Of a DNA stretch of 64,000 nucleotides, positions 22,373 to 61,767 are shown in pieces. Numbering within the stretch: the first letter of the stretch is position 1; every line of letters starts with the position of its first letter. Source of the DNA: Rhizobium sp. C4 (GTDB lineage: Bacteria > Pseudomonadota > Alphaproteobacteria > Rhizobiales > Rhizobiaceae); the NCBI RefSeq assembly GCF_021026315.1, contig NZ_JAJNCX010000002.1, forward strand, positions 434,001 through 498,000, read 5' to 3'. The notes beneath the pieces were generated by a model. That model was not told the origin of the DNA. It did no database searches and saw only the letters and a program-made list of their open reading frames with translations. A program made the position numbers and the translations under genes.

Positions 22373-23749
22373 TCAGCCTTCCGTCCATTGCTTGGTGCCG
22401 CCGCCATTCGCTGCCAGCCATTCGGCGCGGCGGGCGAAATGGTCGGGTGCCATCCTGCGGACATTTCCAATGATGTAGTCGAGATCGACTTCCGTCAGGC
22501 GGCCGTCCTCCACGATGATTTCCCCATCCACCATGGTCATGACGACATCGCTGCCGCGCACCGCGTGGACGAGATTGTGCTGGAGATTGAAATAGCGACC
22601 TTCGCCGAAAAGCGGCGTCATGCGCGGTGTGGAGGTGTCGACGGCGATGATGTCGGCGCGCTTGCCGACCTCGATGGAGCCGATTTCGTGGTCGAGGCCG
22701 ATGGCCTTGGCACCGAGGATGGTGGCCATGCGCAGGCATTGCCAGCTGTCCATGGCGGCCGCATCCCGGTGACGCAGCTTGCCGAGCAGCGAGGCCACCT
22801 TCATCTCCTCGAACATGTCGAAATTGTTGTTCTCCTTCTCGCCATCCGTGCCGATGCCGACGGGCACGCCCAGCGCCAGCATGTCGGAGATTGGCGCAAT
22901 CCCGGAGGCGAGCTTCATGTTGGAGACGGGATTATGCGCCACGGAGACGGGATATTTGGCAATCAGCTCGATCTCTGACGGGTCGAGCCAGACGGCGTGT
23001 GCAATCATCGTGCGCGGGGTTTCGAAGAAGCCGAGGTCTTCCAGCGCAAACATCGGCCGCTTGCCGTAGCGGTTGACGAATTCCTCGACCTCGATATCGG
23101 CTTCGGAGCAATGGGTGTGGAAACCTGTCTGGTGCTTCTTCGCCAAGGCGATGGCGCGCTGTTGGCCCGCCTCGTCGGCATAGAAAAGATGTTCCAGCCC
23201 GACCCAGACATTGATGCGGCCATTGGCCTTTCGATGCCATTGCTCGATCATCGCCTCGTTCATGTCGAGCGTGTCGAAATAGTGGTAATCCGGATGCTCG
23301 CCGACATAAGGAACGGCGACAAGGCGGGTGCCGACCGCTTCGGCCGCCGTCGCGCTCCCCTCCATGAAGCGCCACATGTCGACGACGGTCGTGGTGCCGG
23401 CGAGCGCGGATTCGGCATAGCAGAGGAAGGAGGCGGCTTCCGCCTCATGCGGACGGAGGACCCGGTGCATGGGGTTGATATGCTGCGTCAGCCAGTCCCA
23501 GACCGGCAGATGCTCGGCCGTGCCGCGCAGGAAGCCGGAATGCGCGTGGGCGTTGATGAGCCCCGGCATCAGCACGGCGTTTTCAATCTTTGTCACCTCG
23601 AAGTCGGGGTGTGCTGCCTTGACGGTCTCCAATGGGCCGACGTCGAGAATGCGGCCATCTTCGATGGCCACGGCGCCATGGGTGATGACGCTGTTGTTGG
23701 CATCCATGGTGAGGAGAAATTCGGCTGTCAGGATGCGGCCTGAAGTCAT
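22373..23749 (-). CDS. Amidohydrolase/deaminase (SAH/MTA deaminase and 8-oxoguanine deaminase-like)
   Basis: A 458-residue metal-dependent amidohydrolase. Metal-site motifs are NAHAHSGFLRG, HTHCSEAD, MIAHAVWLDPSEIELIA, and VGIGTDGEKENNN with the catalytic Asp. VAHNPVSNMKLASGIAP is the hallmark of the MTA/SAH deaminase, TrzN and 8-oxoguanine deaminase group, which remove an amino or similar group from purines and triazines. It lies 11 bases upstream of oxygenase copy 1 in the same operon. A deaminated purine-like substrate fits the locus, but the exact substrate is unknown. Confidence 0.87.
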   Translation of the reverse strand: MTSGRILTAEFLLTMDANNSVITHGAVAIEDGRILDVGPLETVKAAHPDFEVTKIENAVLMPGLINAHAHSGFLRGTAEHLPVWDWLTQHINPMHRVLRPHEAEAASFLCYAESALAGTTTVVDMWRFMEGSATAAEAVGTRLVAVPYVGEHPDYHYFDTLDMNEAMIEQWHRKANGRINVWVGLEHLFYADEAGQQRAIALAKKHQTGFHTHCSEADIEVEEFVNRYGKRPMFALEDLGFFETPRTMIAHAVWLDPSEIELIAKYPVSVAHNPVSNMKLASGIAPISDMLALGVPVGIGTDGEKENNNFDMFEEMKVASLLGKLRHRDAAAMDSWQCLRMATILGAKAIGLDHEIGSIEVGKRADIIAVDTSTPRMTPLFGEGRYFNLQHNLVHAVRGSDVVMTMVDGEIIVEDGRLTEVDLDYIIGNVRRMAPDHFARRAEWLAANGGGTKQWTEG

Positions 23750-23786: not shown

Positions 23787-25343
23787 TCAATCCTGTCCGG
23801 TGAGGAAATCGGCGGCGCGTTCGCCGATCATCGTCACGGGGGCATGGGTGTTGCAGGTGGGGATGATCGGGATCACCGAGGCATCCGAAATGGTAAGACC
23901 GTCGAGGCCGTGGACCTTGAGGCGTGGATCGACGACCGAGAGAGCATCGCGCCCCATCTTGGCCGTGCCGCTGGTGTGGAAGAATGTGCCGCAGGCATTG
24001 CGGATGAATTCGACCGTTTCGGCCTTGCTCAGCCGCCGCTCCGGCGCTGCAAAGCCGGCGAAGAGATCGCTAAAGGCCTTTGTTTCGGCGAGGTCCATGA
24101 TCGTGCCGACGGCAGAGACCAGTGCTTCGAGATCTTGCCGCTCTGCGAGATAATTCGGCTGGATGTCCAGCGGGCCGAACGGGTCGGAGGACAGCATGCG
24201 CAAATGGCCGACGCTCTTCGAATGCATCAGCCCGACGCCCATCGAGAAGACCTCGCCCGAGGTGTCGTAGAGTTCGCGAACGCGCGGTTCGGCGCTATTG
24301 CCCTGAACCGGGAAGGCATGGACATCGGCTTGCACGAGGTCGGGTCGCGATTTCCAGTTCAGCATCGTGCCGCCGCCATTGTCGCGCGGCTCGCCAAGCG
24401 GCTGCTTTGCCTTGCAGACGATCGCCTGCACCAGCGGGTGGTCCTGCAGGTTCTTGCCCACGCCCGGCAGCGCGTGGCGAACAGGAATGCCGAGCGGTGC
24501 AAGCTCGGCCGGGTCGCCGATGCCGGAGAGCATGAGAATACGCGGCGTGTTGATGGCGCCGGCGGAGAGTATGACCTGCGTCGTCGCGCGCGTTTCGACC
24601 GGCTGGCCATCGACCAGATGGCGAATGCCGGTGCAGGTCGTGCCATCCAGCAGGAGGGTGAGCACATGGCTGCCGGTCAGCACTGTCAGGCGCGGGTTGC
24701 TGAGGATGGGTTTCAGATAGCCATCAGCGGAGCTGAAACGGCGGCCTTCGGCGATATTGAAATTGGAAGGCGCTGCCCCCTCATTCGTCTCGCCATTCGG
24801 ATCGGCAATGGCGCGGATGCCGACATCTCCAGCGCCTTCGAGCATGGCACTCGCGACCGGGTGAAGATTGCGGCTCGTCGTGAGCCGCAACGGACCGCCC
24901 GCACCGCGAAAGGTGGTTTCGCCGCCTTCCCAATCTTCCGCGCGCTTGAAATAGGGCAGGACCGAGGACCAGCCCCATCCATCGCAGCCGGCGGCGTCCC
25001 AGGCGTCATAATCAGCCGGATTGCCGCGATACCACATCAGCGCATTGATGGCCGAAGAGCCGCCCAGAACCTTGCCGCGCGGAATGCCGATCGTGCGGCC
25101 ATTGACCAGCGGCGAGGGGGTATAGTCATAGCCCCAGTCGAAGCGGCTGCGGCCGAGCGGCACCCAGGCGGCCGGATCTTCGATCTCCGGCACGCCGAAG
25201 CCGGTCTCGCCGGCCTCGATGAGGAGCACTGTCGCATCCGTACGCTCGATCAGCCGCCGCACCACCGGCAGGCCGCCAGAGCCAGCACCGACGACGATAT
25301 AGTCGTAGGCCTTTTCAAGCGGTCTGGCGGAAAGGGTGCTCAC
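23787..25343 (-). CDS. GMC-family FAD oxidoreductase (choline/alcohol dehydrogenase-like)
   Basis: A 518-residue flavoprotein. The FAD-binding motif is YIVVGAGSGGLPVVRRL, the family signature is PRGKVLGGSSAINALMWYRG, and the second signature is VILSAGAINTPRILMLSGIG. The active-site His is in TFFHTSGTAKMG. The second catalytic position, usually Asn in NTNAPT, reads NTHAPVTMIGERAADF. Family members oxidise primary alcohols or amines to aldehydes. In this operon it may oxidise a side chain of the imported compound, with the aldehyde dehydrogenase at 16372-17886 completing the step. Confidence 0.88.
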   Translation of the reverse strand: MSTLSARPLEKAYDYIVVGAGSGGLPVVRRLIERTDATVLLIEAGETGFGVPEIEDPAAWVPLGRSRFDWGYDYTPSPLVNGRTIGIPRGKVLGGSSAINALMWYRGNPADYDAWDAAGCDGWGWSSVLPYFKRAEDWEGGETTFRGAGGPLRLTTSRNLHPVASAMLEGAGDVGIRAIADPNGETNEGAAPSNFNIAEGRRFSSADGYLKPILSNPRLTVLTGSHVLTLLLDGTTCTGIRHLVDGQPVETRATTQVILSAGAINTPRILMLSGIGDPAELAPLGIPVRHALPGVGKNLQDHPLVQAIVCKAKQPLGEPRDNGGGTMLNWKSRPDLVQADVHAFPVQGNSAEPRVRELYDTSGEVFSMGVGLMHSKSVGHLRMLSSDPFGPLDIQPNYLAERQDLEALVSAVGTIMDLAETKAFSDLFAGFAAPERRLSKAETVEFIRNACGTFFHTSGTAKMGRDALSVVDPRLKVHGLDGLTISDASVIPIIPTCNTHAPVTMIGERAADFLTGQD

Positions 25344-25358
25344 GGTGTCTGACGCTCC

Positions 25359-25967
25359 TCAGTTATGCTCGCTCGGGCCCATGATGACGATACCTTCGGT
25401 CGCCTCGACATGGCGGACGAAGATGTATTTGTCCTCGCGGCCGTCCGAATGCTTGCGCTTGATGTCCGGCTGGACGGTGCCCGCCACCTTGGCGACGACG
25501 ATATAGGGTACATCCGCCTTGAGGCCGGCTTCGCAATGGGCTTCGAACTCTTCAAGCGTGCGGGCCGTGTAGGCCTGCTCGACGCCGGCGCCGCGGGCAA
25601 TTGCTGCGATATCGACGCGGCCGGAGGCCGTATGCGTCGGCGGGCCGCCGATCGACTGGTAGCATTCATTGTCCCAGACGACCGTGAAGAGGTTCTTCGG
25701 CTGCTCGTTGCCAAGCGTGGCCAGAATGCCGAGGTTGAACATCATGCCGCCATCCGTATCGAGCGAGATGATGCGGCGATGCGGCAGGCCCGCTGCCAGC
25801 CCGAAGGCCTGCGGTGTCACGCAGCCAAGCTGCTGCTGGAACAGGCTCGCCTCGCGCATATGCGGCGCGGCATTGTACCATTCATCCACCGAGGCCCCGA
25901 GCGAGAGGATGACCAGCTCGTCCTTCAGCCGCGCGGCCAGAAGCTTCATGCAATCATAGCGCTTCAT
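25359..25967 (-). CDS. ThDP-dependent decarboxylase, beta (pyrophosphate-binding) subunit
   Basis: A 202-residue protein with the ThDP pyrophosphate-binding motif in ISLDTDGGMMFNLGILATLG, followed by VVWDNECYQSIGG. Its length and pattern match the ComE-like beta subunit of sulfopyruvate or phosphonopyruvate decarboxylases. It overlaps the alpha-subunit gene by four bases (ATGA). The pair should decarboxylate a 2-oxo acid to an aldehyde. No phosphonate gene is nearby, and sulfonate genes lie only further away, so the true substrate may be a 2-oxo acid derived from the purine-like compound. Confidence 0.83.
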   Translation of the reverse strand: MKRYDCMKLLAARLKDELVILSLGASVDEWYNAAPHMREASLFQQQLGCVTPQAFGLAAGLPHRRIISLDTDGGMMFNLGILATLGNEQPKNLFTVVWDNECYQSIGGPPTHTASGRVDIAAIARGAGVEQAYTARTLEEFEAHCEAGLKADVPYIVVAKVAGTVQPDIKRKHSDGREDKYIFVRHVEATEGIVIMGPSEHN

Positions 25968-26464
25968 CGAACGATCTCCCCGCCAAGGGCAATCGCCGAA
26001 TGGTAATAGGCATTGTAGGACCAGTTATAGGCGTCAACGATCGACTGTTCGATGGCGTCTTCCTCGCGCACGATGCGATAGGGGATGCGCAGCGCATTCA
26101 GCACCGGCTCCATGGTGATGCCATGCGGGATCGCCCACCAATTGTTCTCGCCGAGTTCGCCGCGATAGCTCATCAGCATGACGACCGGGATGCCGGCGCC
26201 GAGACCCATGCGGGCCAGCGGTTCGACAGAAGCGCGAAGACCGGAATTCTCCATGATCAGCGCGGCGCGCTTGCCGGACAGGAACACGCCGCCGCAGATG
26301 GCAGCGCCTTCGCCCTCATTGGTGACGCGGATCGTGCGGATATCGGGATCGGCATCGAGCGCGGGATAAAGCTGTTTGAAAAGCGAATCCGGCAGATAGC
26401 AGACGATGCTGACGCCCGCCCGCTTGAGCCCCCGGATGACCGCATCGACGGATGATTGCTTCAT
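25964..26464 (-). CDS. ThDP-dependent decarboxylase, alpha (PYR) subunit
   Basis: A 166-residue protein with the PYR-domain pattern of ThDP enzymes: GVSIVCYLPDSLFKQLYPAL, then RVTNEGEGAAICGGVFLSG with the cofactor-activating Glu, and LIMENSGLRASVEPLARM. This matches the ComD-like alpha subunit of sulfopyruvate decarboxylase. It is translated just before the beta subunit. Splitting the PYR and PP domains onto two genes is normal for this family. Confidence 0.83.
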   Translation of the reverse strand: MKQSSVDAVIRGLKRAGVSIVCYLPDSLFKQLYPALDADPDIRTIRVTNEGEGAAICGGVFLSGKRAALIMENSGLRASVEPLARMGLGAGIPVVMLMSYRGELGENNWWAIPHGITMEPVLNALRIPYRIVREEDAIEQSIVDAYNWSYNAYYHSAIALGGEIVR

Positions 26465-26568: not shown

Positions 26569-27489
26569 CTATTCCGCCATCCCGACGATCAATTGTTCGA
26601 GCAGTCGGCCGAGTGCGAGCGCGGCATCCGACATTTCCTTTTCGGGCCGGGAGAGCAGCGTCAGCTTGCGCGGCGGCAGGCGCGGATCGATGAGAGGCAC
26701 GAATTTGATCGTACCGTCGATCAGCTCCTGTTCGACACCGACGCGGGTCTGCAACACCAGTCCGAGACCACGTTTGGCCAATTCCACCATCAGGCTGATC
26801 GAATTGGTGCGCGTACGGCTCTGGATATCGACCAGCGACCGGCTGAAGGCCTCTTCCACGGAAGAGCCGAGCGTCAGGCTGGCGTCCGACAGGATGACCT
26901 TCTGGTTGGCGAGGTCGAAGAGCTTGAGTGTGGCGCGTTCCGCCTTGTCGCTGCCCGGCAGCGCCAGCACGCCAAGTGGCAGCGAAATCGAGGTGATGCG
27001 CCGCACGGCGCGGGGTGCGCGGACATCGAAGATGATGGCGAGATCGCTTTCACCTTCAGCAATGGCATTGCAGGCGGCCTGCGAACTCATCACCTTCACA
27101 TCGACCGAGACATCCGGATGCTTGCTCCAGAAGGCCTCCAGCGCGCGCGGCATCAGACCACGCGCAACACTCTCTACTACGGCAATCGACACCGTGCCGC
27201 GATGCAGCCCATGCAATTGGTCGATCTCGTTGCAGGCACGGCCGAGCTCGGAGAGTGCGGCGCGGGCGCGATAGAGAAGCAGTTCGCCCGCCGAGGTCAG
27301 CTTCAGCCGCTGGCGCACCCGCTCGAACAGCGGGGTGCCGAACTCCTCCTCCATCTGCCGGATCACGCGGCTGATCGAGGAGGGGGCGACATTGAGCGAC
27401 AGCGCGGCCTGGCGGATCGAGCCCAGTCTCGCCACCAGCTGGAAATAATGGATCCGGGCGGGGACGAGGCCGAGGCGATAGGGGTCCAT
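26569..27489 (-). CDS. LysR-family transcriptional regulator
   Basis: A 306-residue regulator. The N-terminal winged HTH is in FQLVARLGSIRQAALSLN followed by VAPSSISRVIRQMEEEFG, then a substrate-binding-like domain (GTVSIAVVESVARGLMPRAL, ELAKRGLGLVLQTRVGVE). It lies seven bases downstream of adenine deaminase and upstream of the ThDP genes, so it is embedded in the leftward operon. It probably senses a substrate or intermediate of this pathway and acts at the divergent promoter region 30926-31420. No T-N11-A box could be assigned confidently. Confidence 0.88.
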   Translation of the reverse strand: MDPYRLGLVPARIHYFQLVARLGSIRQAALSLNVAPSSISRVIRQMEEEFGTPLFERVRQRLKLTSAGELLLYRARAALSELGRACNEIDQLHGLHRGTVSIAVVESVARGLMPRALEAFWSKHPDVSVDVKVMSSQAACNAIAEGESDLAIIFDVRAPRAVRRITSISLPLGVLALPGSDKAERATLKLFDLANQKVILSDASLTLGSSVEEAFSRSLVDIQSRTRTNSISLMVELAKRGLGLVLQTRVGVEQELIDGTIKFVPLIDPRLPPRKLTLLSRPEKEMSDAALALGRLLEQLIVGMAE

Positions 27490-27496
27490 GGCGGCC

Positions 27497-29296
27497 TCAG
27501 ACGGGCTCGAACAGCGGCACGATTTCCATCTGCGGCACCGTCACCAGACCCATGTCGGTGATGCGGATTTCCGGGATAACCGACAGCGGGATCAGGTTGA
27601 AGCCCATATAGGGAATGGTGCAGCCGGCCTTGTCCCACTCCACCTTCAGTGCCTGCACTTCCTTGGCCACTTCATGCACGCGCTTGTCGGAGAGGAGACC
27701 GGCGATCGGCAGCGGCACGATGGCTGTCACCTTGCCGTCCTGCACGACGCAGGCGCCGCCCTGATGCTCCTCGATGGCGCGCAGCGCCACCTGCATGTCG
27801 GCCTCGTTGGTGCCGGCGAGGATGATATTGTGGCTGTCATGGCCGACGGAGGAGGCAACCGCGCCGCTCTTCAGCGAGAAGTTGGACAGCAGCCCATAGG
27901 CAACATTGCCGGCCGACTTGCCGTGACGCTCGACCACGGTCACGAAGCAGAGGCCATGTCGTTCGAAATGCGTCTGCCAGTCGTTGGCGGGCTCCAGCTC
28001 GACCTTCACATGGCCGAGAATGATGCCGGGAAGTTCGGTCTTGATCGTGTTGGCGATGACCTTTTCCGTCGGCAGTTCCGGCGTCAGCTTGATGGACTTC
28101 GGCAGCTTGACGGTGTGATAGGCGGCTTCCGGGTAGCGCCACGGCTTGGACAGCGTTTCGTCCAGCAACGGCGTGATCTTCTTCTGGTCGACCATCAGCT
28201 CGCCGCCATACCAGGTGGAGATCGGGTTGAGGTCGTCATCCAGCATGACGAGATCGGCGCGGCGACCGCCGCCCATGCCGCCGAAATCGCCTTCCATGCC
28301 GAAGCGCGTTGCGCCATGCAGCGAGCCCATGGACCAGGCCTGTTCGCGCGACATGCCGGCCTTGCGCGCCTCGCGCACCACCCAGTCGAGGCCGAAGGTC
28401 AGGAGGTCGTCGGCATCGCGGTCGTCGGTGCAGACGGCAATGCGCTTGTGCGACGCGCCAAGCTCGGTGACGGTCTTGATGGCCAGCGGCAGCGAATGCC
28501 ACGGCGTCGTCGGCGGGCCACCGCGCAGGAAGAGCCAGATGCCGGCCTCCAGCATGTCGTCGGCGATTTCGCGGTCGATCGCCTCATGCGTGTCGGTGAC
28601 GCCGGAGGCGGCGTATGCTGCGACGAATTCGCGGCCATAGACATGGCCGCTGACCGGTTTGCCGCGGGAAAGCGCTGCGGCGATGATGGCGTGGCTGCGC
28701 TCATCGCCCATGGCGACCGGCACGAAATCCATCTTCTCGCCAAGGGCTGCGGCTTCCGGCCACTTGTCGAAGATCGCGGCAATCTTTTCCGGCGTCAGGT
28801 CGCCGCCGGCAGTTTCCAGTTCAGGCGATGTGGCCGGCACGGTGGAGGGGACGGTGAGGAAGATCGAGAGCGGCGCATGGCGCGCGTCTTCCAGCATTGC
28901 CTCGACGCCGGCGACGTCCATCACGTTGCCGATTTCGTGGCTGTCACAGAAGATCGAGGTCGTGCCGTTCAACAGGGCGGCCTCGGCATAGGCGCAGGCC
29001 GTGACCATGCTCGATTCGATATGGATATGCGGATCGACCAGACCCGGCGCGATGATGCCGCCCCTGGCATCATAAAGCTTGGCGCCGCCTGCCTTATAGG
29101 TGCCGGCCGGCTTGACGGCGGCGATGCGGCCGCCGGAGATCCAGACTTCACGGTCAGGCAGGATGCGCTCCGAATAGGTGGAAAGCACCCGCGCGCCCTG
29201 GATGACGAGGTCCGGCGCTGTGCGACCGGAGGCGACATCCGCGAGCTTGCGGGTCATCGTTGCCAGCGGTGCAACGGAAAAGCGGGTGATGGCCAT
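27497..29296 (-). CDS. ade: Adenine deaminase
   Basis: A 599-residue protein of full length for bacterial adenine deaminase. Metal-site motifs are [39 protein letters not shown], and [13 protein letters not shown]. The C-terminal domain has [20 protein letters not shown]. Family members convert adenine to hypoxanthine and ammonia in the cytoplasm. It sits between the GST-like gene and the LysR gene. Its presence with guanine deaminase and a BMP-type importer is the main evidence that this locus handles purines. Confidence 0.92.
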
Positions 29297-29350: not shown

Positions 29351-29983
29351 TTAATGATAGTCCGGAATGCCCGGCATGGTGATGAAGCCGGGAAGCCGGC
29401 GGAAACGGCGAAGCCACAGGCGCAGTGCCGGAAACTCCTCGTGGTCAATGTTGAAATCGCGCGACAGCGCGAAGCTCGGGATCAAAGCCAGATCGGCAAT
29501 CGTCGGATAATCGGCGGCAAACCACTCTTTGCCCTCGATGTGGCGCAGCGTCATGTGGTCGTCCATAATGCGGAAGGCAGCGCGCGCGTCGGCCTTCAAC
29601 CGCTCCAGATGGCCGCCAACGGCAAAGACGGCAACTTCCCGCGCCTTCACGGCCGCCTGCAACGGGCCGGCGGCAAAACCCAGCCACATCATGGTCGTCG
29701 AAAAATCGGGGCGGTCGATGGGGAGCCATTTGCCCGAGGCATCGTTGTGTCTGGCAAGATGGGCAAGGATCGCTTCGGCGCCGAAGAGAACCGTGTCGCC
29801 CTGCTTGATGAAGGGCAGCGTGCCGCACGGGTTCAGTGCCAGAAGCGCCGGCGACTTTTCCTCGCGGCCCGGCAGCATGTTGACCGAATAGACATCATGC
29901 TCAATGCCGAGCATGGAAAGCAGAAGGCGGACGCGATAGCTGTTTTCGTCCAGTTCATAATTGTAGAGCGTCAGGGCGGACAT
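29351..29983 (-). CDS. Glutathione S-transferase-like protein, partner of the Rieske protein
   Basis: A 210-residue GST-fold protein. The thioredoxin-like N-terminus is LTLYNYELDENSYRVRLLLS, with the cis-Pro segment NPCGTLPFIK and then FGAEAILAHLAR. The all-helical C-terminal half ends with IADLALIPSFALSRDFNID. It overlaps the stop of the Rieske gene by the TGATG junction, so the two are co-translated. In the caffeine pathway of Pseudomonas putida CBB5, the GST-like NdmE is needed in a complex with Rieske-less NdmC and NdmD. A similar scaffolding role is inferred here. A conventional glutathione-dependent role is the alternative. Confidence 0.85.
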   Translation of the reverse strand: MSALTLYNYELDENSYRVRLLLSMLGIEHDVYSVNMLPGREEKSPALLALNPCGTLPFIKQGDTVLFGAEAILAHLARHNDASGKWLPIDRPDFSTTMMWLGFAAGPLQAAVKAREVAVFAVGGHLERLKADARAAFRIMDDHMTLRHIEGKEWFAADYPTIADLALIPSFALSRDFNIDHEEFPALRLWLRRFRRLPGFITMPGIPDYH

Positions 29984-30660
29984 CAGGCGACCTCGGCAAG
30001 GGGTGTTTCAAGGGCGAGGCGAAGGGCCTGCGCATAGCGGGCAAGGGCGGCGATCGGCGCGCCTTCGTTTGCCATCAGGTGCAGCGCGAGCTTAGCGTCG
30101 CCCATGGACTGGATGGCGACCAGAAGCCGGGTCGCGCCGGCAGTCAGAGATATGTAATTCTCTGAGATCGTTTCGATTTTCGGCGCGTCGCTCACGCCGG
30201 GCAGCGGCGTTGCAGCCAGGATCGCGAGCGCCTTCTCCATTGTGCAGTCTGCATAAAGGCTTCGCACCGGAACAAGTCCGGCAATCTCGGCCGGCAGGAG
30301 GGCCGGGTCTGCCTCCGTGGTCGAGCCTGCCCAGATGATGCCGTTGCGTTCGGCGCTGGCGAAGGTCTGCATGCGGATGGTCTGCGGCACGTCCAGCTGC
30401 GGATGCGCCGGGATGTGGCGGCATTGACCGGCCGTGTCATATTGCCAGCCATGATAGAGGCAGGCGAGGTGATCGCCGCGCACGAAGCCGAAGCTCATGC
30501 GCATGCCGCGATGCGGACAGCGGTCTTCCCAGACATGCGCCTTGCCGCTGGAATCGCGCCAGACCACCAGTTCGGCGCCGTTCACGACCGCGCCCGTCGA
30601 GGTGCTGGGATCAACCATGTTCGACAATGCGACCGGTGACCAGATGGGTTGAGGTGTCAT
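29983..30660 (-). CDS. Stand-alone Rieske 2Fe-2S protein detached from its oxygenase
   Basis: A 225-residue protein. The Rieske centre is in DRCPHRGMRMSFG and LACLYHGWQYD: Cys48-x-His50, then Cys67-x2-His70. The sequence from there (AGQCRHIPAHPQ, NGIIWAG) matches the N-terminal Rieske domain of NdmA/VanA-type oxygenases. The last 100 or so residues have no D-x2-H-x4-H iron site, so the catalytic domain is absent. Two proteins with only that domain are encoded at 21493-22362 and 36326-37183. I infer that this protein carries electrons to one or both of them. It is not fused to a reductase, unlike NdmD. Confidence 0.88.
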   Translation of the reverse strand: MTPQPIWSPVALSNMVDPSTSTGAVVNGAELVVWRDSSGKAHVWEDRCPHRGMRMSFGFVRGDHLACLYHGWQYDTAGQCRHIPAHPQLDVPQTIRMQTFASAERNGIIWAGSTTEADPALLPAEIAGLVPVRSLYADCTMEKALAILAATPLPGVSDAPKIETISENYISLTAGATRLLVAIQSMGDAKLALHLMANEGAPIAALARYAQALRLALETPLAEVA

Positions 30661-30673: not shown

Positions 30674-30925
30674 TCAAATATTGCCGGCCGGAGCGATGTC
30701 CCGCCGCGTCACGTCCTGAATGATGCAATCATATGGGCCAAGGCTGCAGGCCATTTCGAACATGTCGACCAGTGCCTCGTCGCCCGTGACGGTCACGTCG
30801 AAAAAGCGGTCGCTGGCGGCCCCGAAATCGATCCCCAGAGACAGCCGATTGGCCCGGTGCTGGGCAAATTGCCGAAAACTCGCCTGCACGAGAGCGCCGG
30901 AAAATACGAATGCGACCTCAGCCAA
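30674..30925 (-). CDS. Small acylphosphatase-like protein at the head of the Rieske operon
   Basis: An 83-residue protein starting at TTG (30925), with GGGAGG seven bases upstream, and ending 13 bases before the Rieske gene. The pattern FVFSGALVQASFRQFAQHRANRLSLGI, then DVTVTGDEALVDMFEMACSLG, resembles the ferredoxin-like acylphosphatase fold (phosphate loop and Arg in VQASFR). The conserved catalytic Asn region is not evident, so it may be a non-catalytic or diverged member. Its role is unknown. Its place as first gene suggests it matters to the oxygenase system. Confidence 0.6.
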   Translation of the reverse strand: MAEVAFVFSGALVQASFRQFAQHRANRLSLGIDFGAASDRFFDVTVTGDEALVDMFEMACSLGPYDCIIQDVTRRDIAPAGNI

Positions 30926-31420
30926 GGTCGTGCCTCCCGGATTGGGTATCGTGTCGCGCCTGTTGTTCTGCTTCCGTCATCTGACCGCCAAATTGGCATT
31001 CGCGAATGCAAATGCACAAAATTTAATCATGCTCTATTATTGATCACTTTACCGACAGGTCGGATGGCTTTTCAAGCGGTTTTTTCGTCGCACTTGTTGC
31101 TTATTGCGCATCAAACTCGACGAATTTTTTCGTCTATGCGGAACAACTGGCTTTTGAAAATCTCAGGTCCGGCAGCGGTTTCAGCGTTGAAAGGGTCGAA
31201 TTTACGCCGGCTTTCCCGCCTTTTTGCCGACACGAGAAAGTGTGGCGGCGTGCCTGCTGAACGTGCACCGGTTTGTGTGTTCTGCACGGCAGGGTAGACG
31301 GAGTTCAATTCGGCCTTTCTGGCACGGATATTGCTGAATGTCACCAGACGGCATTCGCTTGAGGCCCGGGCAACCGGTTCCGGCAGGCGAGATGTTCAAA
31401 CCAACGAAACAGGGGTTCAC
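30926..31420. promoter_or_regulatory. Divergent control region of the purine-type locus, with palindrome
   Basis: About 495 bases separate the leftward and rightward operons. A perfect 14-base palindrome, GCATTCGCGAATGC, lies at 30996-31009. The flanks extend the symmetry by three further bases on each side after one mismatch. It is a likely operator near the leftward promoter. The rest is comparatively AT-rich; no purine riboswitch core or convincing small gene was recognised. Confidence 0.5.
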
Positions 31421-32545
31421 ATGATCGACATACGCAATCTATCCCGTCGCGGATTCTTGAACATGACGGCGGCCGGCGGTGCAGCCGCTCTGATGTCGGG
31501 CACGCTTGCCCGTCCGTCCTTCGCCGCCGCAGCGCCCTTGCCGGCCGTGAAGGAAGAGGATGCCATCATCGGCTTCGGCCATGTCGGCCCCGTAACCGAC
31601 GAAGGCTGGACCTGGGCGCACCATCAGGGTGTTCTTGCAGTCAAGGAAAAGTATCCGAAGCTGAAGAAGATCCTCGAAGTCGAAAACGTTCCCTATTCGG
31701 CCGATGCGACGCGCACCTATCGCCAGTTCGTCAGCGAAGGCGCGAACATGATCTTCGACACCTCCTCGACGGGTGACTTCCTGCATGAAGTCGTCAAGAA
31801 GTCGCCGAAGGTCGCCTTCATGGAATGCGACGGCCGCACCGACATGCCGAACCTCGGCTGGTACTATCTGGCACACTGGTATCCGACCTATGTCATCGGC
31901 GTTGCCGCCGGCATGATGTCGAAGACCGGCAAGCTCGGCTACGTCGCCTCCTTCCCGGTTCCGTCCGTCTTCTCCGGCACGAACGCCTTCCTGATGGGCG
32001 CGCGCTCGGTCAATCCGAAGGCAACGCTGCAGACCATCGTCATCAACTCCTGGTTCGACCCGCAGGCTGCTGCCCAGGCCGGCACGGCGCTGATCGACAA
32101 TGGCTGCGACTTCCTCTTCGGCATCATGGACGAGGCCGCCTATCTTCAGGTTGCCGAAAAGCGCGGCGTATGGGCTGCCATGTGGAACACGGATATCCGT
32201 CGCTACGGCCCGAACTCCTACGTGTCTTCCGTCGTCATCGACTTCAAGGATTTCTATGTCGATCAGGTCGGCCAGCGCCTCGCCGGCAAGTGGACACCCT
32301 CGCAGACCATCCTTTCCATGGGCAAGGGTATCGACCGCGACAAATGGGGCGAGAAGGTTCCGGCCGAAGTCGCCAAGGCAGCTGATGCCGTGCGCGACAA
32401 GATCCTTGGTGGCTGGTCGCCGTTTACCGGCGAACTCAAGGATGCCAAGGGCAATGTGAAGGTTCCCGCCGGCAAGACCATGTCGGAAGTCGAACTCTAC
32501 CACTGGGATTGGTCGATCGAAGGCGTTTCGGGCCTTTCGAGCTGA
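31421..32545 (+). CDS. BMP-family ABC transporter substrate-binding protein (nucleoside/purine type)
   Basis: A 374-residue periplasmic binding protein. The start at 31421 opens a Tat signal, NLSRRGFLNMTAAGGAAALMSG, ending near SFAAAAP. The mature part shows IIGFGHVGPVTDEGWTWAHHQG, which is the BMP/PnrA-type lipoprotein fold start, GANMIFDTSSTGDF, and NSWFDPQAAAQAGTALIDNG. The family binds purine nucleosides and related compounds. It heads the rightward operon with its ATPase and two permeases. Since deaminases of adenine and guanine are nearby, a purine base, nucleoside or modified purine is the likely ligand. Confidence 0.92.
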   Translation: MIDIRNLSRRGFLNMTAAGGAAALMSGTLARPSFAAAAPLPAVKEEDAIIGFGHVGPVTDEGWTWAHHQGVLAVKEKYPKLKKILEVENVPYSADATRTYRQFVSEGANMIFDTSSTGDFLHEVVKKSPKVAFMECDGRTDMPNLGWYYLAHWYPTYVIGVAAGMMSKTGKLGYVASFPVPSVFSGTNAFLMGARSVNPKATLQTIVINSWFDPQAAAQAGTALIDNGCDFLFGIMDEAAYLQVAEKRGVWAAMWNTDIRRYGPNSYVSSVVIDFKDFYVDQVGQRLAGKWTPSQTILSMGKGIDRDKWGEKVPAEVAKAADAVRDKILGGWSPFTGELKDAKGNVKVPAGKTMSEVELYHWDWSIEGVSGLSS

Positions 32546-32555
32546 TCCAACTTGC

Positions 32556-32584
32556 GAGCGGCCCGGTTTCGCGCCGGGCCGCTC
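32556..32584 (+). terminator. GC-rich hairpin after the binding-protein gene
   Basis: A perfect 11-bp stem (32556-32566 with 32574-32584), loop of seven bases, lies 10 bases after the stop and before the ATPase gene, followed by AGCCGTTTTCTT. It probably acts as a partial terminator or mRNA-stabilising hairpin so that the binding protein is made in excess. Confidence 0.7.
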
Positions 32585-32640
32585 AGCCGTTTTCTTGTCG
32601 TTTCGGCACCTCCAACGATAGCCCGATCGGTCTTCCGCGC

Positions 32641-34221
32641 ATGCAAGATGAAATTCCAGCCGCCGCCTCATCGCCAGGGACGCCGCCGCGCGTCTACCTG
32701 AAGGGGATTGCCAAGTATTTTCCGGGCGTGATCGCCAATGAGAATGTCGATATCGAGGTTCTGCCGGGCGAAATCCATGCGCTTCTGGGCGAGAATGGTG
32801 CCGGCAAATCGACGCTGATGAATATCCTCACCGGCATTTACCAGCCGGATGCGGGTGAGATCATCATCGATGGCTATGCCCGGCAGTTTGCTTCGCCTGT
32901 CCAGGCAATCGCCGCCGGCATCGGCATGGTGCACCAGCATTTCAAGCTGGTGCAGGCCTTCACGGTGGCCGAAAACATTCATCTCGGCTGGGATGAAACG
33001 CCGAAGCGCACCTCTGCCGCCGTTCTGGAGGCGCGCACCGCGGAGCTTGCCAAGACATTCAATCTTCAGGTCAAGCCCGGTGCGCGGGTCAGTGAACTTT
33101 CGACCGGCGAACAGCAGCGTGTCGAAATCCTGCGCGTGCTGTCACGCCGTGCCAAGATCCTGATCCTTGATGAACCTACCGCCGTTCTGACGCCGGCGGA
33201 AGCGCGAGAGCTTTTCCGGGCGCTGCGCGACTTCGTTTCGCATGGCAATTCGGTGATCTTCATCAGCCACAAGCTGGATGAAGTGCTGGAAATCTCCGAC
33301 CGCATCAGCATTCTGCGCCAGGGCCGCAAGATCGCGACCGAGAAGGCCGCAGACTGCAATCCGCGCATGCTTGCCAAGCTCATGGTGGGCCGCGATATCG
33401 TTCTGGACGACATGCGCGAGCGCGCCGCGAATGCCAAGCCGATGTCTGCTGAGCCAGTGCTGAAGGTCTCGGGTCTATCCGCGCTGGGCGACAATGGCCT
33501 GACGGCGCTGCATGATCTCAATTTCTCGCTCCGCGCCGGCGAAATCCTCGGCATTGCAGGCGTTGCCGGCAATGGTCAGCGGGAGTTGAGCCAGGTGCTG
33601 ACCGGTGTCCGCCCCGCGTCTACCGGCGACATCATGATTGCCGGCAAGACGATGGCGGGTCTGAAGGCCGGCGAATTTGCCGCTGCCGGCATCGGTCATA
33701 TCCCGGAAGATCGCCTGCATAGCGGCCTCGCGCCCGCCATGTCGATCACCACCAATGCCGTGATGCGCGAATATGGCAAGCCGCCGGTTGCCAAGGGTGG
33801 CTTCTTCAGCCGCGAGGCGGCGGGGAAGTTGGCTCGCGAAATTGCCGGTGCTGCCGACGTCGCGATACCCGATTTCGCCATGCCGATCCGCAATCTCTCC
33901 GGCGGCAACCAGCAGCGCCTTGTCGCGCGCCGCGAGATGCGCATTGCCGAGCGCATCCTTGTCGCCGCCTATCCGAGCCGGGGGCTCGATGTCGGCGCGA
34001 TCAATACGATGCTGCGCTACATCGTCGAGCTGCGCGACGCGGGCGCGGGCGTGGTGCTCATTTCCGAAGAGCTGGAGGAACTGCTGAACCTCTCCGACCG
34101 CATTGCCGTGCTTTATGAAGGCCGCATCATGGGAATTCTTGACAACAACAATCTCGATATTGACGAGATCGGCCTGATGATGGGCGGGCGGGCGCATGTC
34201 GGCGCAGGGGAGGCCGCCTGA
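32641..34221 (+). CDS. Nucleoside/purine ABC transporter ATP-binding protein (two NBDs)
   Basis: A 526-residue tandem ATPase. The first domain has LLGENGAGKSTLMNILTG (Walker A), VSELSTGEQQRVEILRVLSR (signature, with STGEQ) and ILILDEPTAVLTP (Walker B). The second domain has a non-standard P-loop region (LGIAGVAGNGQRELSQVLTG) and a full signature NLSGGNQQRLVARREM. This double-domain layout matches sugar and nucleoside ATPases of the RbsA/BMP type. The ATG at 32641 follows the hairpin. It energises uptake with the permeases at 34221-36203. Confidence 0.92.
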   Translation: MQDEIPAAASSPGTPPRVYLKGIAKYFPGVIANENVDIEVLPGEIHALLGENGAGKSTLMNILTGIYQPDAGEIIIDGYARQFASPVQAIAAGIGMVHQHFKLVQAFTVAENIHLGWDETPKRTSAAVLEARTAELAKTFNLQVKPGARVSELSTGEQQRVEILRVLSRRAKILILDEPTAVLTPAEARELFRALRDFVSHGNSVIFISHKLDEVLEISDRISILRQGRKIATEKAADCNPRMLAKLMVGRDIVLDDMRERAANAKPMSAEPVLKVSGLSALGDNGLTALHDLNFSLRAGEILGIAGVAGNGQRELSQVLTGVRPASTGDIMIAGKTMAGLKAGEFAAAGIGHIPEDRLHSGLAPAMSITTNAVMREYGKPPVAKGGFFSREAAGKLAREIAGAADVAIPDFAMPIRNLSGGNQQRLVARREMRIAERILVAAYPSRGLDVGAINTMLRYIVELRDAGAGVVLISEELEELLNLSDRIAVLYEGRIMGILDNNNLDIDEIGLMMGGRAHVGAGEAA

Positions 34222-35258
34222 TGGCCTATCGCATTCAACGTCTCCCGTCCTCGACGCCACTGATCGCCTTTGCCGCCCGCGTGATCGCAGTTGTTCTGGC
34301 GCTGCTCGTCACGGCGCTGATCCTGGCAATCAGCGGGCATGACCCGATCGATCTTGCCGGGCAGGTGCTCTCCTCCTCTCTGCTCGACAGTTTCGGCCTT
34401 CAGGATCTCGGCGTGATCTTCATTCCGCTGATGCTGACGGGGCTTTCCGTCGCCGTCGCTCAGCAGATTGGCGCCTGGAATATCGGGGCTGAAGGGCAGT
34501 TCTATGCCGGTGCCTTCGCCGCGACCGCCATCGGTCTTTTCATTCCGGCACCAGATTGGCTGAGCCTGATCCTGATGGTGATCGGCGGCTTTGCGGCTGG
34601 GGCCATCTGGATTCTCGTGCCGACGCTCGCCAAGGCCTATGCGGATGTCAGCGAGTTGATCTCGACGCTGCTTCTCAATTTCGTTGCGGCGCTGATGGTC
34701 TATTATGTGGCGACCGGGCCTTGGCACGATCGGATGACCAATTCCTCGACGCCGAAGGTCGGGGCCGAAATTCCGGAATTCTGGGGCGCCATCCACTGGG
34801 GCTTCCCCATTGCCATTGTCTTTGCGATCGTTCTCGCTCTGGTCTTGAGCAACACGAAATGGGGCTATGAGGTCCGGCTTTCCGGCTCCAACCCGTCTGC
34901 GGCCGAATATGCCGGCATACCCGTTCGCCGGCATCTGATCATGGTCATGCTGCTTTCGGGCGCGATTGCCGGCTTTGCCGGCATGCTGGAAGTGGCCGGC
35001 ACGGTGCATCGCCTGCAAGGCGGGATTTCCAACAATTACGGCTATATCGGCATCATGGTCGCGGTTCTGGCGCGCGGCTCGCTGGTCGGCGTCATCTTTG
35101 CCGGGGCCTTCATGGCCTTCATCCAGAATTCCGGCATCATCCTGCAAACGCAGGGTCTCACGACATCGGCCGTGCTTGCCATGACGGGCCTCATCCTCTT
35201 CCTGACGGCAATCGGCGAAGAGCTTTCCTATTATCGCATCACCCGAGACAAGGTTTAG
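34221..35258 (+). CDS. Nucleoside/purine ABC transporter permease 1
   Basis: A 345-residue integral membrane protein with about eight to ten hydrophobic segments (VIAVVLALLVTALILAI, DLGVIFIPLMLTGLSVAVA, LSLILMVIGGFAAGAIWILV). The family segment VAQQIGAWNIGAEGQFYAGAF is a mark of BMP-type nucleoside permeases. The ATG overlaps the ATPase stop by one base, so the genes are coupled. It forms the membrane channel with the second permease. Confidence 0.92.
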   Translation: MAYRIQRLPSSTPLIAFAARVIAVVLALLVTALILAISGHDPIDLAGQVLSSSLLDSFGLQDLGVIFIPLMLTGLSVAVAQQIGAWNIGAEGQFYAGAFAATAIGLFIPAPDWLSLILMVIGGFAAGAIWILVPTLAKAYADVSELISTLLLNFVAALMVYYVATGPWHDRMTNSSTPKVGAEIPEFWGAIHWGFPIAIVFAIVLALVLSNTKWGYEVRLSGSNPSAAEYAGIPVRRHLIMVMLLSGAIAGFAGMLEVAGTVHRLQGGISNNYGYIGIMVAVLARGSLVGVIFAGAFMAFIQNSGIILQTQGLTTSAVLAMTGLILFLTAIGEELSYYRITRDKV

Positions 35259-35267
35259 GAGAGCGTC

Positions 35268-36203
35268 ATGGATCTGATTACCGGACTGCTGACAACCGCG
35301 TTTCTCGCCGGCGGCGTGCTGGCGCTGGCGGCCATTGGTGAAGTGCTGGCCGAGCGCGTCGGCGTCGTCAATCTCGGCGTCGAGGGCTTGATGGCCATGG
35401 GCGCCGTCACAGGCATTGCTGCCGTTTCGGCAACGCATTCGCCGGTGCTGGGTTTCCTCGCCGCGCTTGCCGTGGGCGCGCTCTTCGGCGCGGCCTTCGC
35501 TTTCGCCACCGTCATGATCAAGGCAAACCAGGTGCTTTGCGGCCTCGCCCTGACGCTGATGGGCACAGGCCTTGCCCAGACGATCGGCCGTGGCTATTCC
35601 GGCATGCCGGCGGCGGCGACTTTCCAGCCGATTACCATACCGCTGCTGTCCGACATTCCGGTTCTCGGCAAAGCCTTCTTCTCGCAGAATATCCTGATTT
35701 ATCTCATCTATCTGATCCTGCCGATCGGGCTCAGCTATCTGATGTTCTACACCCGCCACGGCATGAACATGCGCGCAGTCGGCGAAAACCCGGCAGCTGC
35801 CGATGCGGCGGGCATATCGGTCAACACGATGCGCTTCTGCTACGTGACGGCGGGTGCGGCACTTGCCGGCGGAGCCGGGGCCTATCTGACGCTCGCCTTC
35901 GTACCCTCCTGGTCGGATGGCGTGATTGCCGGACGCGGCTGGATCGCCGTCGCGCTGGTCATTTTTGCGGGCTACCGGCCGGGCATGGCGGCGCTTTCCG
36001 GCCTGCTTTTCGGTCTGATCACCGCGCTCGGGTTTGTCGGGCAGGCGAGGGGCTGGCCGATTGCGCCGGCCTTCCTCTCCATGCTGCCTTATCTCGGAAC
36101 GCTTGGCTTCATCATCGTGCCGGTCATCGCCTGGCAGAAGATGCGCCGCGCCATGGCGGCCCCGGCAGCACTGGGCGAGCCCTATTATCGAAATGTGCGC
36201 TAG
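35268..36203 (+). CDS. Nucleoside/purine ABC transporter permease 2
   Basis: A 311-residue membrane protein, paralogous in fold to permease 1, with the family segment EVLAERVGVVNLGVEGLMAMGAV near the N-terminus and GMNMRAVGENPAAADAAGISV in the cytoplasmic loop. About eight hydrophobic segments are visible. AGGAGAG precedes the ATG, nine bases after permease 1. It completes the importer. Confidence 0.92.
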   Translation: MDLITGLLTTAFLAGGVLALAAIGEVLAERVGVVNLGVEGLMAMGAVTGIAAVSATHSPVLGFLAALAVGALFGAAFAFATVMIKANQVLCGLALTLMGTGLAQTIGRGYSGMPAAATFQPITIPLLSDIPVLGKAFFSQNILIYLIYLILPIGLSYLMFYTRHGMNMRAVGENPAAADAAGISVNTMRFCYVTAGAALAGGAGAYLTLAFVPSWSDGVIAGRGWIAVALVIFAGYRPGMAALSGLLFGLITALGFVGQARGWPIAPAFLSMLPYLGTLGFIIVPVIAWQKMRRAMAAPAALGEPYYRNVR

Positions 36204-36325: not shown

Positions 36326-37183
36326 ATGGTTCAGGCAAGTGACAAGGCGTCCATTGATCAGTGGTATGTTATCGATACTGAAGCACAGATCCCCTTTGGG
36401 ACGTCAAGTAACCGGCTGCTGGGCTTCGACCTCAAGGTGGTGCGCAGCAAGACGGACGGTGTGACGGTCTATTGTGCCGGTCGTGACGAAGCACTGCCGA
36501 TCCGCCAGCGCTTCGGTTTCATCTGGACAACGCTTGGCACGCCGGAGCGCGACGTATTCCCGATGCCGGAAGCCGATGAGCCTGATAGGCGCTATGTGCC
36601 CTGCGGCGTGGTGGCCGTGAACGCCTCAGGCCTTCGCATTGTCGAGAACTTCCTCGACATGGCGCATTTCCCCTTCGTCCATACGGATATCCTGGGCTCC
36701 GAACCGCATACCGAAGTCGAGCATTACAATGTCGAGATCCGTCGTGACGTGGACGAGGTCTGGGCGACAAATTGCCAGTTCTTCCAGCCGCAGGCAGCCC
36801 TGTCGGCAAAGGAGGGCATCATGACGCAATATATCTATCGCGTGATGACGCCGTTCACGACGCTGCTTTACAAGACCTGCCCGAATTCGGCCAATCGCTG
36901 GGATCTGATCTGCCTCTTCGTGCAGCCCGTCGATGTCGACCGCTGCCGTGCGCATCCGGTCATGTATCTGATCGATGATGTCTCGACGACCAGCTCGCTG
37001 ATCGAGTTCCAGCAGCTCATCTTCCTTCAGGACCGCATCATTCTGGAAAACCAGCGCCCGGTTCTCTTGCCGCTGGAGCCACGCTCGGAAATACCGACAC
37101 GGGCGGATGCCTCCTCCATCGCCTATCGCCGCTGGCTGAAGGAAAAAGGCGTGACCTACGGCACCAGCCTTCAAGCCGCGTGA
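36326..37183 (+). CDS. Rieske-less oxygenase catalytic protein (NdmC-like), copy 2
   Basis: A 285-residue paralogue of 21493-22362, read in the opposite arm of the locus. It keeps the iron site ENFLDMAHFPFVHTDILG and the segment EIRRDVDEVWATNCQFFQP almost unchanged, and also FLQDRIILENQRPVLLP and SIAYRRWLKEKG at the end. It likewise lacks any Rieske Cys/His pairs. The ATG at 36326 follows AAAGGG and opens the conserved start DQWYVIDTEAQ. It lies just after the importer and overlaps the guanine deaminase gene, which points to oxidation of an imported purine. Copies 1 and 2 may form a heteromer or have different substrates. Confidence 0.82.
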   Translation: MVQASDKASIDQWYVIDTEAQIPFGTSSNRLLGFDLKVVRSKTDGVTVYCAGRDEALPIRQRFGFIWTTLGTPERDVFPMPEADEPDRRYVPCGVVAVNASGLRIVENFLDMAHFPFVHTDILGSEPHTEVEHYNVEIRRDVDEVWATNCQFFQPQAALSAKEGIMTQYIYRVMTPFTTLLYKTCPNSANRWDLICLFVQPVDVDRCRAHPVMYLIDDVSTTSSLIEFQQLIFLQDRIILENQRPVLLPLEPRSEIPTRADASSIAYRRWLKEKGVTYGTSLQAA

Positions 37184-38577
37184 CAGCGATGATGCTGAGA
37201 AATGCATGGCTGCTTGCCAGAGGTTTCCACGCGCCCGTGTGTGGCGACGTTGAGGTTCTGGACGACACGCTGATCGAGATCGATGCGGATGGTGTCATTG
37301 GTGACGTCGTTCGCCCGACCGAAGCCCGATATGAAGTGCTGAAGTCCGCGATCGAAGGGCAGGGCATTCTGCATCGACTGCCGGAGGGCTGCTATATCCT
37401 GCCCGGCTTTGTCGATTGCCATGTCCATGCGCCGCAATATCCGCAGCTGGGCTCGGCGCTGGATGTGCCGCTGGAAGTGTGGCTCCACAAATACACGTTC
37501 CCCCTTGAGGCGCGCTTTGCCGATCTCGCCTATGCGCGCCGCGCTTATGATCTGCTGGTGGCCGATCTGCTTGCGAATGGAACGACGACGGCGCTCTATT
37601 TCGCGACCATCCATCAGGAGGCGACGCGGCTGCTCGCCGATATCTGCCTTGAGAAAGGCCAGCGTGCGCTGGTCGGCAAGGTGGCGATGGATCATCCCGA
37701 AAACTGCCCGGACTATTATCGCGACGCCTCGCCAGAGGCTGCCGTGGAGGGCACGCGGGCGCTGATCGACTATATCTTTGCCCATCCCGACAATGCGAGC
37801 GGCCTCGTGAAGCCGGTCATTACTCCGCGCTTCATTCCCGCCTGCACCGATGCGGCGCTGGAGGGCCTGGGGCAATTGGCGCAGGAATGCGGCTGCCATG
37901 TGCAGACCCATTGTTCGGAGAGCGATTGGGCGCATGGCTATGTGCTGGAGCGCCACGGCATGACCGATGCCGCTAGCCTTGATCGCTTCGGCCTTCTCGG
38001 ACGGCGGACGATGCTGGCGCATTCCAACTTCCTGACGGCCTCGGATATGGAGTTGCTGAAAGTCCGTGAGGCGGCTGTCGCGCATTGCCCGCTTTCCAAT
38101 TCCTTCTTCGCCGGCGCCGTGTTTCCGCTCCGCGCCGCGCTGGAAAAGGGGCTCCATATCGGCCTCGGCACGGATATTTCCGGCGGCCCCAGCGCCTCCA
38201 TGTTCGAGGCGAGCCGCAATGCGATCACGGTTTCGCGGATGCTGGAAACGGGTGTCGATCCGCAAAAGAGTGCGGCCGAGCGCGCGTCCGGTGCCCCTGC
38301 ACGGATCGATTTCCGCCATGCGTTCCATGTCGCAACCGCCGGCGGAGCGAAGGCGCTGGACCTGCCTGTGGGGCAATTTGCGCCGGGCTATGCCTTCGAT
38401 GCGATGCTGATCGATTGCAACGCGCCCGGCGGCACGATCCGCCTGTGGGATGAGGCGGAGACGAGCGATGATCTCTTGCAGCGGATCATCTTCACCGCGT
38501 CAAAGGGCAATATCGCCCAGGTCTGGGTGGCTGGCCGGGCGGTGGCCGGAACCGGGATTGCCGATCAGGCCGCGTGA
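37180..38577 (+). CDS. guaD: Guanine deaminase
   Basis: A protein of about 465 residues. Family marks are LPGFVDCHVHAPQYPQLGSA, EVWLHKYTFPLEARFAD, VQTHCSESDWAHGYV, MLAHSNFLT, AVAHCPLSNSFF and IGLGTDISGGPSASMFEA, which hold the His, Glu and Asp of the zinc site. GTG at 37180 overlaps the previous stop; the ATG at 37189 or 37192 could also be used, with no clear ribosome site for any. It converts guanine to xanthine, which the molybdenum hydroxylase in the leftward arm could then act on. Confidence 0.9.
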   Translation: MTAMMLRNAWLLARGFHAPVCGDVEVLDDTLIEIDADGVIGDVVRPTEARYEVLKSAIEGQGILHRLPEGCYILPGFVDCHVHAPQYPQLGSALDVPLEVWLHKYTFPLEARFADLAYARRAYDLLVADLLANGTTTALYFATIHQEATRLLADICLEKGQRALVGKVAMDHPENCPDYYRDASPEAAVEGTRALIDYIFAHPDNASGLVKPVITPRFIPACTDAALEGLGQLAQECGCHVQTHCSESDWAHGYVLERHGMTDAASLDRFGLLGRRTMLAHSNFLTASDMELLKVREAAVAHCPLSNSFFAGAVFPLRAALEKGLHIGLGTDISGGPSASMFEASRNAITVSRMLETGVDPQKSAAERASGAPARIDFRHAFHVATAGGAKALDLPVGQFAPGYAFDAMLIDCNAPGGTIRLWDEAETSDDLLQRIIFTASKGNIAQVWVAGRAVAGTGIADQAA

Positions 38578-61028: not shown

Positions 61029-61050
61029 ATTAAACGCGAAGGAAATGCAC

Positions 61051-61683: not shown

Positions 61684-61767
61684 ATACCCTTCAAGACATC
61701 CAAGAAGCGGCGCCAGCGCGGAGAGGCGAGGCCTGCCGAGACCCTCAACTCCATGGAGATCAAGATC

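Follow-up and report, generated by a model that had tools for sequence, protein, structure and literature searches.

The closest described relative of the locus analysed here is the NdmC-NdmD-NdmE system of Pseudomonas putida CBB5. According to PMC4408171, NdmC lacks a Rieske cluster, NdmD has one more than usual, and NdmE is a GST-like protein for which a structural role is postulated; the system is reported to N7-demethylate 7-methylxanthine, and NdmCDE is presented there as the first reported split-off Rieske domain fused to a reductase. The structural role of NdmE is repeated in PMC8055839. Ordinary Rieske oxygenases (ROs), according to PMC12445004, are trimers with electron transfer between subunits. 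In these enzymes a single chain holds both the cluster and the iron, so the two cannot be changed independently. Rieske-type ferredoxins such as CarAc and the naphthalene dioxygenase ferredoxin are free Rieske electron carriers, and the oxygenases that they serve retain a Rieske cluster of their own.

The locus described here lies in a window of 64,000 nucleotides, the whole stretch of Rhizobium sp. C4 DNA that was analysed (Table 1). It shares with NdmCDE a cluster-less catalytic protein, a Rieske centre placed elsewhere and a GST-like third protein, but its Rieske subunit, R, is free, with no fused reductase; this likeness was measured via Paraburkholderia caffeinilytica proteins (~38-46% identity) rather than on the CBB5 sequences themselves. 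The models of R and of CatB, one of the two catalytic subunits (C), superpose over the whole chain on VanA/SxtT-type ROs (SxtT, GxtA, NdmA and DMO in the PDB), which are single chains with both centres, whereas here the centres are on separate proteins. A four-gene operon on a Paracoccus alcaliphilus plasmid (L212) has a free R, a C, a GST-like protein and a BMP-type importer, as here, but also its own PDR/VanB-type reductase gene, of which tblastn found no relative in the window. Rieske-type ferredoxins are free carriers like R, but their PDB chains are single domains of 103 and 115 aa, in contrast to the 225 aa of R with a second unit at 129-218 in its model, and their partner oxygenases carry their own cluster, whereas C has no Rieske ligands. 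NdmCDE is a close precedent, to which our analysis adds the unfused version, the apparently vestigial halves and a small partner protein. In the literature that we searched, no title or abstract opening describes an unfused form or vestigial halves, and a search including acylphosphatase returned no matching paper.

The Rieske and catalytic centres on separate proteins

The initial annotation had placed a Rieske motif on a 225-residue protein and the catalytic sites on two other proteins of the locus. Plus-strand frame 1 of the R interval (29983-30660) is interrupted by stops, and the R ORF is on the minus strand. R consists of a Rieske domain at about residues 7-112, with C48, H50, C67 and H70, followed by residues 113-225. 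Pfam matched the Rieske family at residues 7-90 (E 1.1e-22) and no second family at E 0.1, and direct reading found C at 48, H at 50, C at 67 and H at 70, exactly where the ligands had been located. The N/E-x-x-D-x-x-H-x(3-5)-H motif was searched for in the protein and is absent, in agreement with the claim that R has no catalytic iron site, and the chain terminates at 225 aa with no reductase fused on, free and fused forms being separate clades. Both catalytic proteins match VanA_C (E 8.5e-15 and 4.1e-23), with KshA_C weaker and Rieske giving no match, so the claim that they are catalytic-only also held; NFLDMAHFPFVH is present in both CatA and CatB. An alternative CatB start, ATG at 36299, would give 294 aa. 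The precedent invoked, NdmC with a Rieske domain fused to the reductase in NdmD, agrees with PMC4408171. The sequence evidence supports the interpretation as a separate Rieske protein with the catalytic sites on two others, all unfused. Beyond it, the arrangement is widespread, the paralogues look complementarily decayed, and an acylphosphatase-like protein accompanies the system.

Table 1. Features of the locus in the window
Feature	Position	Strand	Basis
Xanthine-dehydrogenase-like subunits (iron-sulfur subunit 17883-18356; fused FAD and molybdenum subunits 18353-21493)	17883..21493	minus	matches below equivalog cut-offs
CatA, catalytic subunit A, 289 aa	21493..22362	minus	VanA_C fold, without Rieske ligands
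TRZ/ATZ-type amidohydrolase, directly before CatA	22373..23749	minus	PF01979; NCBIfam matches below cut-off
GMC oxidoreductase and two-subunit TPP decarboxylase-like pair	23787..26464	minus	Pfam; co-occurrence with CatA
LysR-type regulator	26569..27489	minus	PF03466 and PF00126
Adenine-deaminase-like protein	27497..29296	minus	Adenine_deam_C 7.8e-51; TIGR01178 351 bits, cut-off of 472.5 not reached
GST-like protein (NdmE-like)	29351..29983	minus	GST_N/GST_C Pfam
R, Rieske subunit, 225 aa	29983..30660	minus	Pfam Rieske; ligands read off; whole-chain fold match
Acylphosphatase-like small protein, 83 aa from TTG at 30925	30674..30925	minus	family profile; genome co-occurrence
BMP-type ABC importer	31331..36203	plus	ORFs; same annotated order in similar locus L214
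Importer binding protein	31331-32545
Importer ATPase	32509-34221
Importer permeases	34221-35258 and 35268-36203		PF02653 for the former; position alone for the latter
CatB, catalytic subunit B, 285 aa	36326..37183	plus	VanA_C; Rieske shell without cluster loops
Guanine deaminase	37180..38577	plus	TIGR02967, 411 bits vs cut-off 375.4

The genes around R are closely packed: the GST-like start codon and the R stop overlap by one base at 29983, and the small-protein stop sits 13 bases ahead of the R start codon. Guanine deaminase adjoins CatB, with a four-base overlap with the CatB stop, and exceeds its family cut-off, whereas the adenine deaminase, the xanthine dehydrogenase parts and the second amidohydrolase are family-level matches only. 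The TPP pair matches sulfopyruvate decarboxylase families below their cut-offs. The FAD and molybdenum subunits of the xanthine-dehydrogenase-like enzyme are joined in a single ORF of 1046 aa.

Free and fused forms among relatives

Among 297 genomes of the same family, our own included, 53 contain a free-standing relative of R, 23 a fused-type long open frame (582-853 aa) and three both. Of the 54 free-Rieske rows, 46 were read with neighbourhoods of up to ~10 kb per side, our own window apart and with G019, G175, G202, G194, G273, G287 and G169 left out. A Rieske-less catalytic protein lies near R in all 46 loci, a GST-like protein in 45, the exception (L089) having a deletion that spans the C end and the GST start, and a separate reductase in 5; in L086 the C gene is broken, with 189 aa remaining. 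A scan of named genomes, with a total of at least 80 loci, yielded a best 80 that span Rhizobium, Agrobacterium, Bradyrhizobium, Celeribacter, Methylorubrum, Gluconacetobacter and others. The GST is found in 80/80 of them, a catalytic protein near R in 78/80, the two others being on contigs under 9 kb, and a reductase in 3/80; in 17 of them R is followed directly by C on the same strand. The split Rieske oxygenase arrangement is widespread, and the finding proposes a function for genes annotated 'Rieske (2Fe-2S) protein' and similar on rhizobial plasmids.

In the family and named sets, which overlap in part, R has the Rieske but no catalytic motif in 46/46 and 80/80 (best named) rows, and C has the catalytic but no Rieske motif in 76/76 rows, fused-locus C included, and in 113/113 rows from the best named loci. 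None of the 126 R rows and none of the 189 C rows has both motifs on one protein. C48, H50, C67 and H70 are invariant in 47/47 R rows (six fused ones among them), as are N108, D111, H114, H119 and D236 in 50/50 C rows (ten from fused loci). From RO structures we take D111 to be the bridging Asp and H114, H119 and D236 to be the iron ligands, so that the iron site in C is presumably a 2-His-1-carboxylate plus the Asp of N-x-x-D. There is one R per locus, and two C occur in 35 of the best 80 named loci and 16 of the 46 family loci (51/126 locus rows). The seven fused loci that we read likewise have two catalytic proteins, together with the Rieske-reductase fusion, a GST-like protein and importer genes, which is the NdmCDE layout. 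The catalytic-only subunit of L212 (7665-8540) is annotated '(2Fe-2S)-binding protein' despite having no cluster ligands.

The Rieske and C trees were built without 12 near-duplicate loci and the outgroup ROs L044-L046; L054, L043, L198, L204, L207 and short C rows were additionally excluded from the C tree. In the Rieske tree, rooted on 22 complete ROs whose long branches the program flagged, the domains of both forms group together (100/97), with a fused branch (97/89) sister to a free branch (95/83). R thus represents an unfused lineage that is sister to the NdmC-NdmD-NdmE type, and NdmD becomes one fused branch alongside it. The C-subunit tree was poorly resolved, with bootstrap values that had not settled and a scattered outgroup, the CatA and four-gene groups being visible. 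In the reductase tree, a 95/93 branch unites the four-gene reductases, those of NdmD and a further one (L216), which is no more than suggestive.

In a Cupriavidus plasmid (L213, 6860-8727), overlapping Rieske and reductase ORFs resemble a broken NdmD-type fusion, and a Klebsiella pneumoniae plasmid record (L215, 4131-7411) has NdmC-, NdmD- and NdmE-like genes amid insertion sequences.

Two apparently worn oxygenase chains and a probable small partner

Profile comparison placed CatB residues 10-107 on the Rieske fold and the R profile with the cluster stretch missing (probability 97, E 1.2e-10), a clear indication that C retains the shell of a Rieske domain without the cluster loops. The CatB model matched SxtT/GxtA chains with a TM of 0.81-0.87, and the best PDB sequence match of CatB is SxtT or SxtDIOX/GxtA. 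In R, residues ~113-225 are probably a degenerate RO catalytic fold. Its AlphaFold2 model (pLDDT 95.0) has a strand-helix-four strands-helix unit at 129-218 and, compared with whole RO chains in the PDB, found SxtT/GxtA first, with a TM of 0.69-0.76 over 266-282 columns; among the 50 matches listed, the TM by query length was 0.62-0.78 with a loose rmsd of 4.4-8.2. As the Rieske domain makes up half of R, that half alone could not yield the TM seen. Comparison of the C-terminal half with the RO catalytic fold by hhalign was weak (probabilities 44, 19, 71, 73 and 60), and the vestigial catalytic half of R is supported mainly by the model.

Conservation in the two chains is reciprocal. Mean pairwise identity in R (41 rows) falls from 56.6% for the Rieske half to 26.7% for the C-terminal half, and in C (40 rows) it rises from 37.1% for the shell to 65.4% for the catalytic half. 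The dN/dS values from four same-genus loci were 0.05-0.09 in the Rieske half of R and 0.22-0.31 in the other half, and, for the two C, 0.05-0.18 in the shell and 0.00-0.02 in the catalytic half. All of these values are below 1, so the worn halves still look selected, which together with the reciprocal conservation favours doubling with complementary loss over a simple cut. R and C look like two complete RO paralogues with complementary decay, not one cut chain. When the worn half of R is aligned with the middle of NdmD-like proteins, identity across the full stretch is 26-28%, suggesting that NdmD probably has that half too.

The acylphosphatase-like protein appears to be a fourth part of the system, overlooked in the initial annotation, and would be a previously unrecognised protein partner. 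Its 83-residue ORF is present in 122/128 split loci and in 0/10 NdmCDE-type fused loci (stretches of 11.8-19.5 kb). In 112 loci it shares the strand of R and begins no more than 400 bases ahead of it, in eight four-gene-type loci it lies ~8 kb downstream and in two it is on the opposite strand; the six split loci without it include L181 and L212, which are short stretches, and L062 (genome G113). For whole-genome counts we set the small protein at 1e-21 (family) or 1e-15 (order), free R at E <= 6.3e-33 in the family and 4.3e-32 in the order, provided that its open frame did not exceed 400 aa, and the fused form at an open frame of 570-1023 aa (23 genomes in the family and 21 in the order, the fused protein sequence being read in some of these). 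The small protein is found in 51/53 family genomes with free R and 0/244 others, and order-wide in 40/41 and 0/356. Fused-only genomes have it in 0/20 (family) and 0/21 (order) cases, and it is present in all three genomes that combine the two forms. The family misses are G085, where the stretch directly ahead of R gives a weaker match (6e-13), and G011, with no match, and the order-wide miss is G515. Ordinary acylphosphatases, present in many genomes at weaker E (5e-13 and up), were left out of the counts. The family and order counts are not independent tests: some genomes, including at least 5 of those with free R, occur in both samples, and loci of such genomes went into the profile, A3. 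Fisher values calculated on these counts take no account of kinship. The small-protein gene of G113 is on another contig, in a 20-kb stretch that matches none of R, C and GST, and G306 carries it on a different contig from R, so mere neighbourhood cannot account for the whole co-occurrence.

PF00708 touched 24/32 members of the small family at E 0.5 (best 1.2e-9), and the window protein is under its cut-off (14.3-14.6 vs 22.5 bits). Searched against the PDB, the small-family profile found acylphosphatases (best 3.9e-7), which align with it over positions 4-78 of 85. Unlike in acylphosphatases, the Arg position holds Arg in only 2/32 members and the Asn position holds Asn in 0/32; we take these positions to be the catalytic residues of acylphosphatases. 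The window protein keeps the Arg and has Ala at the Asn position. That it is an adaptor or assembly factor is our guess. Its counterpart in a similar record (L214) is annotated as a hypothetical protein.

Electron supply, substrate and alternative readings

Electron supply to R may depend on the rest of the genome. With NdmD-type, four-gene-type and VanB-type reductases as queries, tblastn of the window gave no match at 1e-3, and Pfam on ten further window ORFs found FAD-, FMN- and NAD-binding proteins and no RO-type reductase. R, C, GST and a reductase of their own form one operon in L057, L083-L086 and the Paracoccus alcaliphilus plasmid. The own genome contains five matches to the four-gene-type reductase, all outside the window and each with a different oxygenase or a Rieske ORF no further than ~1.3 kb away; a haem N-demethylase is among these neighbouring oxygenases. 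A dedicated orphan reductase of the four-gene type in this genome was considered and rejected, as all five matches adjoin other oxygenase or Rieske ORFs; with these neighbours and none of the five in the window, we infer a shared reductase. Among 28 split-locus genomes, 18 have a four-gene-type reductase at E 1e-30, and the 26 without a local reductase divide into 16 with and 10 without such a match, the latter counting against the proposal. R would be supplied by a reductase encoded elsewhere and common to other systems.

The purine setting and the nearest relatives hint at the substrate. CatB, R and the GST-like protein are 45.9%, 37.6% and 38.5% identical, respectively, to those of the P. 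caffeinilytica cluster (L211), which also contains formaldehyde genes, and the identity of CatB to the NdmC-type protein of such a cluster makes purine N-demethylation the likeliest reaction of the catalytic subunits. CatA-like proteins occur with GMC and TPP genes in 17/17 family loci, GMC and TPP being absent from the other 29 by identity thresholds; in the best 80 named loci, CatA-like, GMC and TPP are all present in 35, none in 43 and partial in 2. Plain N-demethylation does not account for the GMC and TPP genes travelling with CatA. With these genes alongside, the CatA substrate may bear a larger side chain.

We consider it probable that the locus encodes a Rieske oxygenase made of two decayed RO chains. 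R would come from a complete RO chain that kept its cluster while the catalytic half shrank, and C from one whose iron site survived while its Rieske half was stripped of the cluster loops. R would receive electrons from the reductase encoded elsewhere and pass them from its [2Fe-2S] cluster directly to the mononuclear iron of a docked C, the equivalent step in an ordinary RO crossing to the neighbouring subunit of the trimer. A single R most likely works with CatA as well as CatB, and these two would oxidise N-alkylated purines, probably stripping N-methyl groups, in a setting with putative purine deaminases, xanthine dehydrogenase and a purine-type importer nearby; the GST-like and acylphosphatase-like proteins may be non-catalytic assembly or docking partners. 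If this is true, the separate RO-shaped halves would let cluster docking and the contribution of the neighbouring subunit be tested directly, and the system would show how one electron-transfer subunit can be common to several catalytic ones.

A more elaborate form of this proposal is possible, though we hold it only tentatively and rather doubt it. It is a four-part oxygenase that arose by RO doubling and complementary decay, in which the dead-catalytic R and the cluster-less C would occupy different places of one mixed RO assembly, R would be common to interchangeable C, and an obligate pseudo-acylphosphatase, substituting for the NdmD fusion, would hold, load or gate the electron supply of the free Rieske subunit.

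R could instead be a soluble Rieske-type ferredoxin shuttling electrons from the reductase to C, the split being a three-component RO whose oxygenase lost its cluster. As in a shared carrier, R has no fused reductase and is present in a single copy while C reaches two per locus, and Rieske ferredoxins are among its PDB matches, but they are far down (2qpz at 5.8e-5, 1vck at 6.1e-4), whereas the best sequence matches are RO chains (2.7e-23), with SxtT or SxtDIOX/GxtA on top. R, which in the family set is unfused and 200-245 aa long, is also about twice the size of a ferredoxin, with a second half that models as RO-like, and it is 32-41% identical over ~111-180 residues to the Rieske part of long fused-type frames, so we regard the ferredoxin as unlikely. 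Somewhat less improbable is that the catalytic subunits of our preferred two-chain oxygenase hydroxylate a purine C-H, for example at C8, instead of N-demethylating. The amidohydrolase of a three-gene operon (L094) has 8-oxoguanine deaminase as its best NCBIfam match, at 364.7 bits and below the cut-off of 532, and would fit such a product; against it, among proteins whose reaction has been reported, those nearest to C are NdmC-like, CatB being 45.9% identical to the one of L211, and PMC4408171 reports N7-demethylation of 7-methylxanthine by NdmCDE.

CatA and CatB are 7.6 and 5.7 kb from R in the window, and the two kinds of protein might be unrelated neighbours, R serving another enzyme and C being a repurposed non-oxygenase fold. 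We think this highly improbable, as C is near R in 46/46 family loci and 78 of the best 80 named loci, directly downstream on the same strand in 17 of the latter, the iron-site residues are kept in 50/50 rows and the catalytic half of C has a dN/dS of 0.00-0.02 in the four same-genus loci. That R is an NdmD-type fusion turned pseudogene or misassembled, for which the apparent broken fusion on the Cupriavidus plasmid could speak, deserves next to no weight: the same split is seen across genera in the 46 family and best 80 named loci, dN/dS is well under 1, and the fused forms are a separate clade. For the same reasons, recurrence of the split in relatives and separation of the fused clade, we rejected a frameshifted fusion; the gene following R is GST-like and shares one base with its stop. 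The two-chain oxygenase with a common R remains our preferred reading.

Elsewhere in the window, at 61045-63120, a luciferase-like monooxygenase (PF00296) has an FMN reductase (PF03358) next to it; this flavin-dependent pair has no connection with the split oxygenase.
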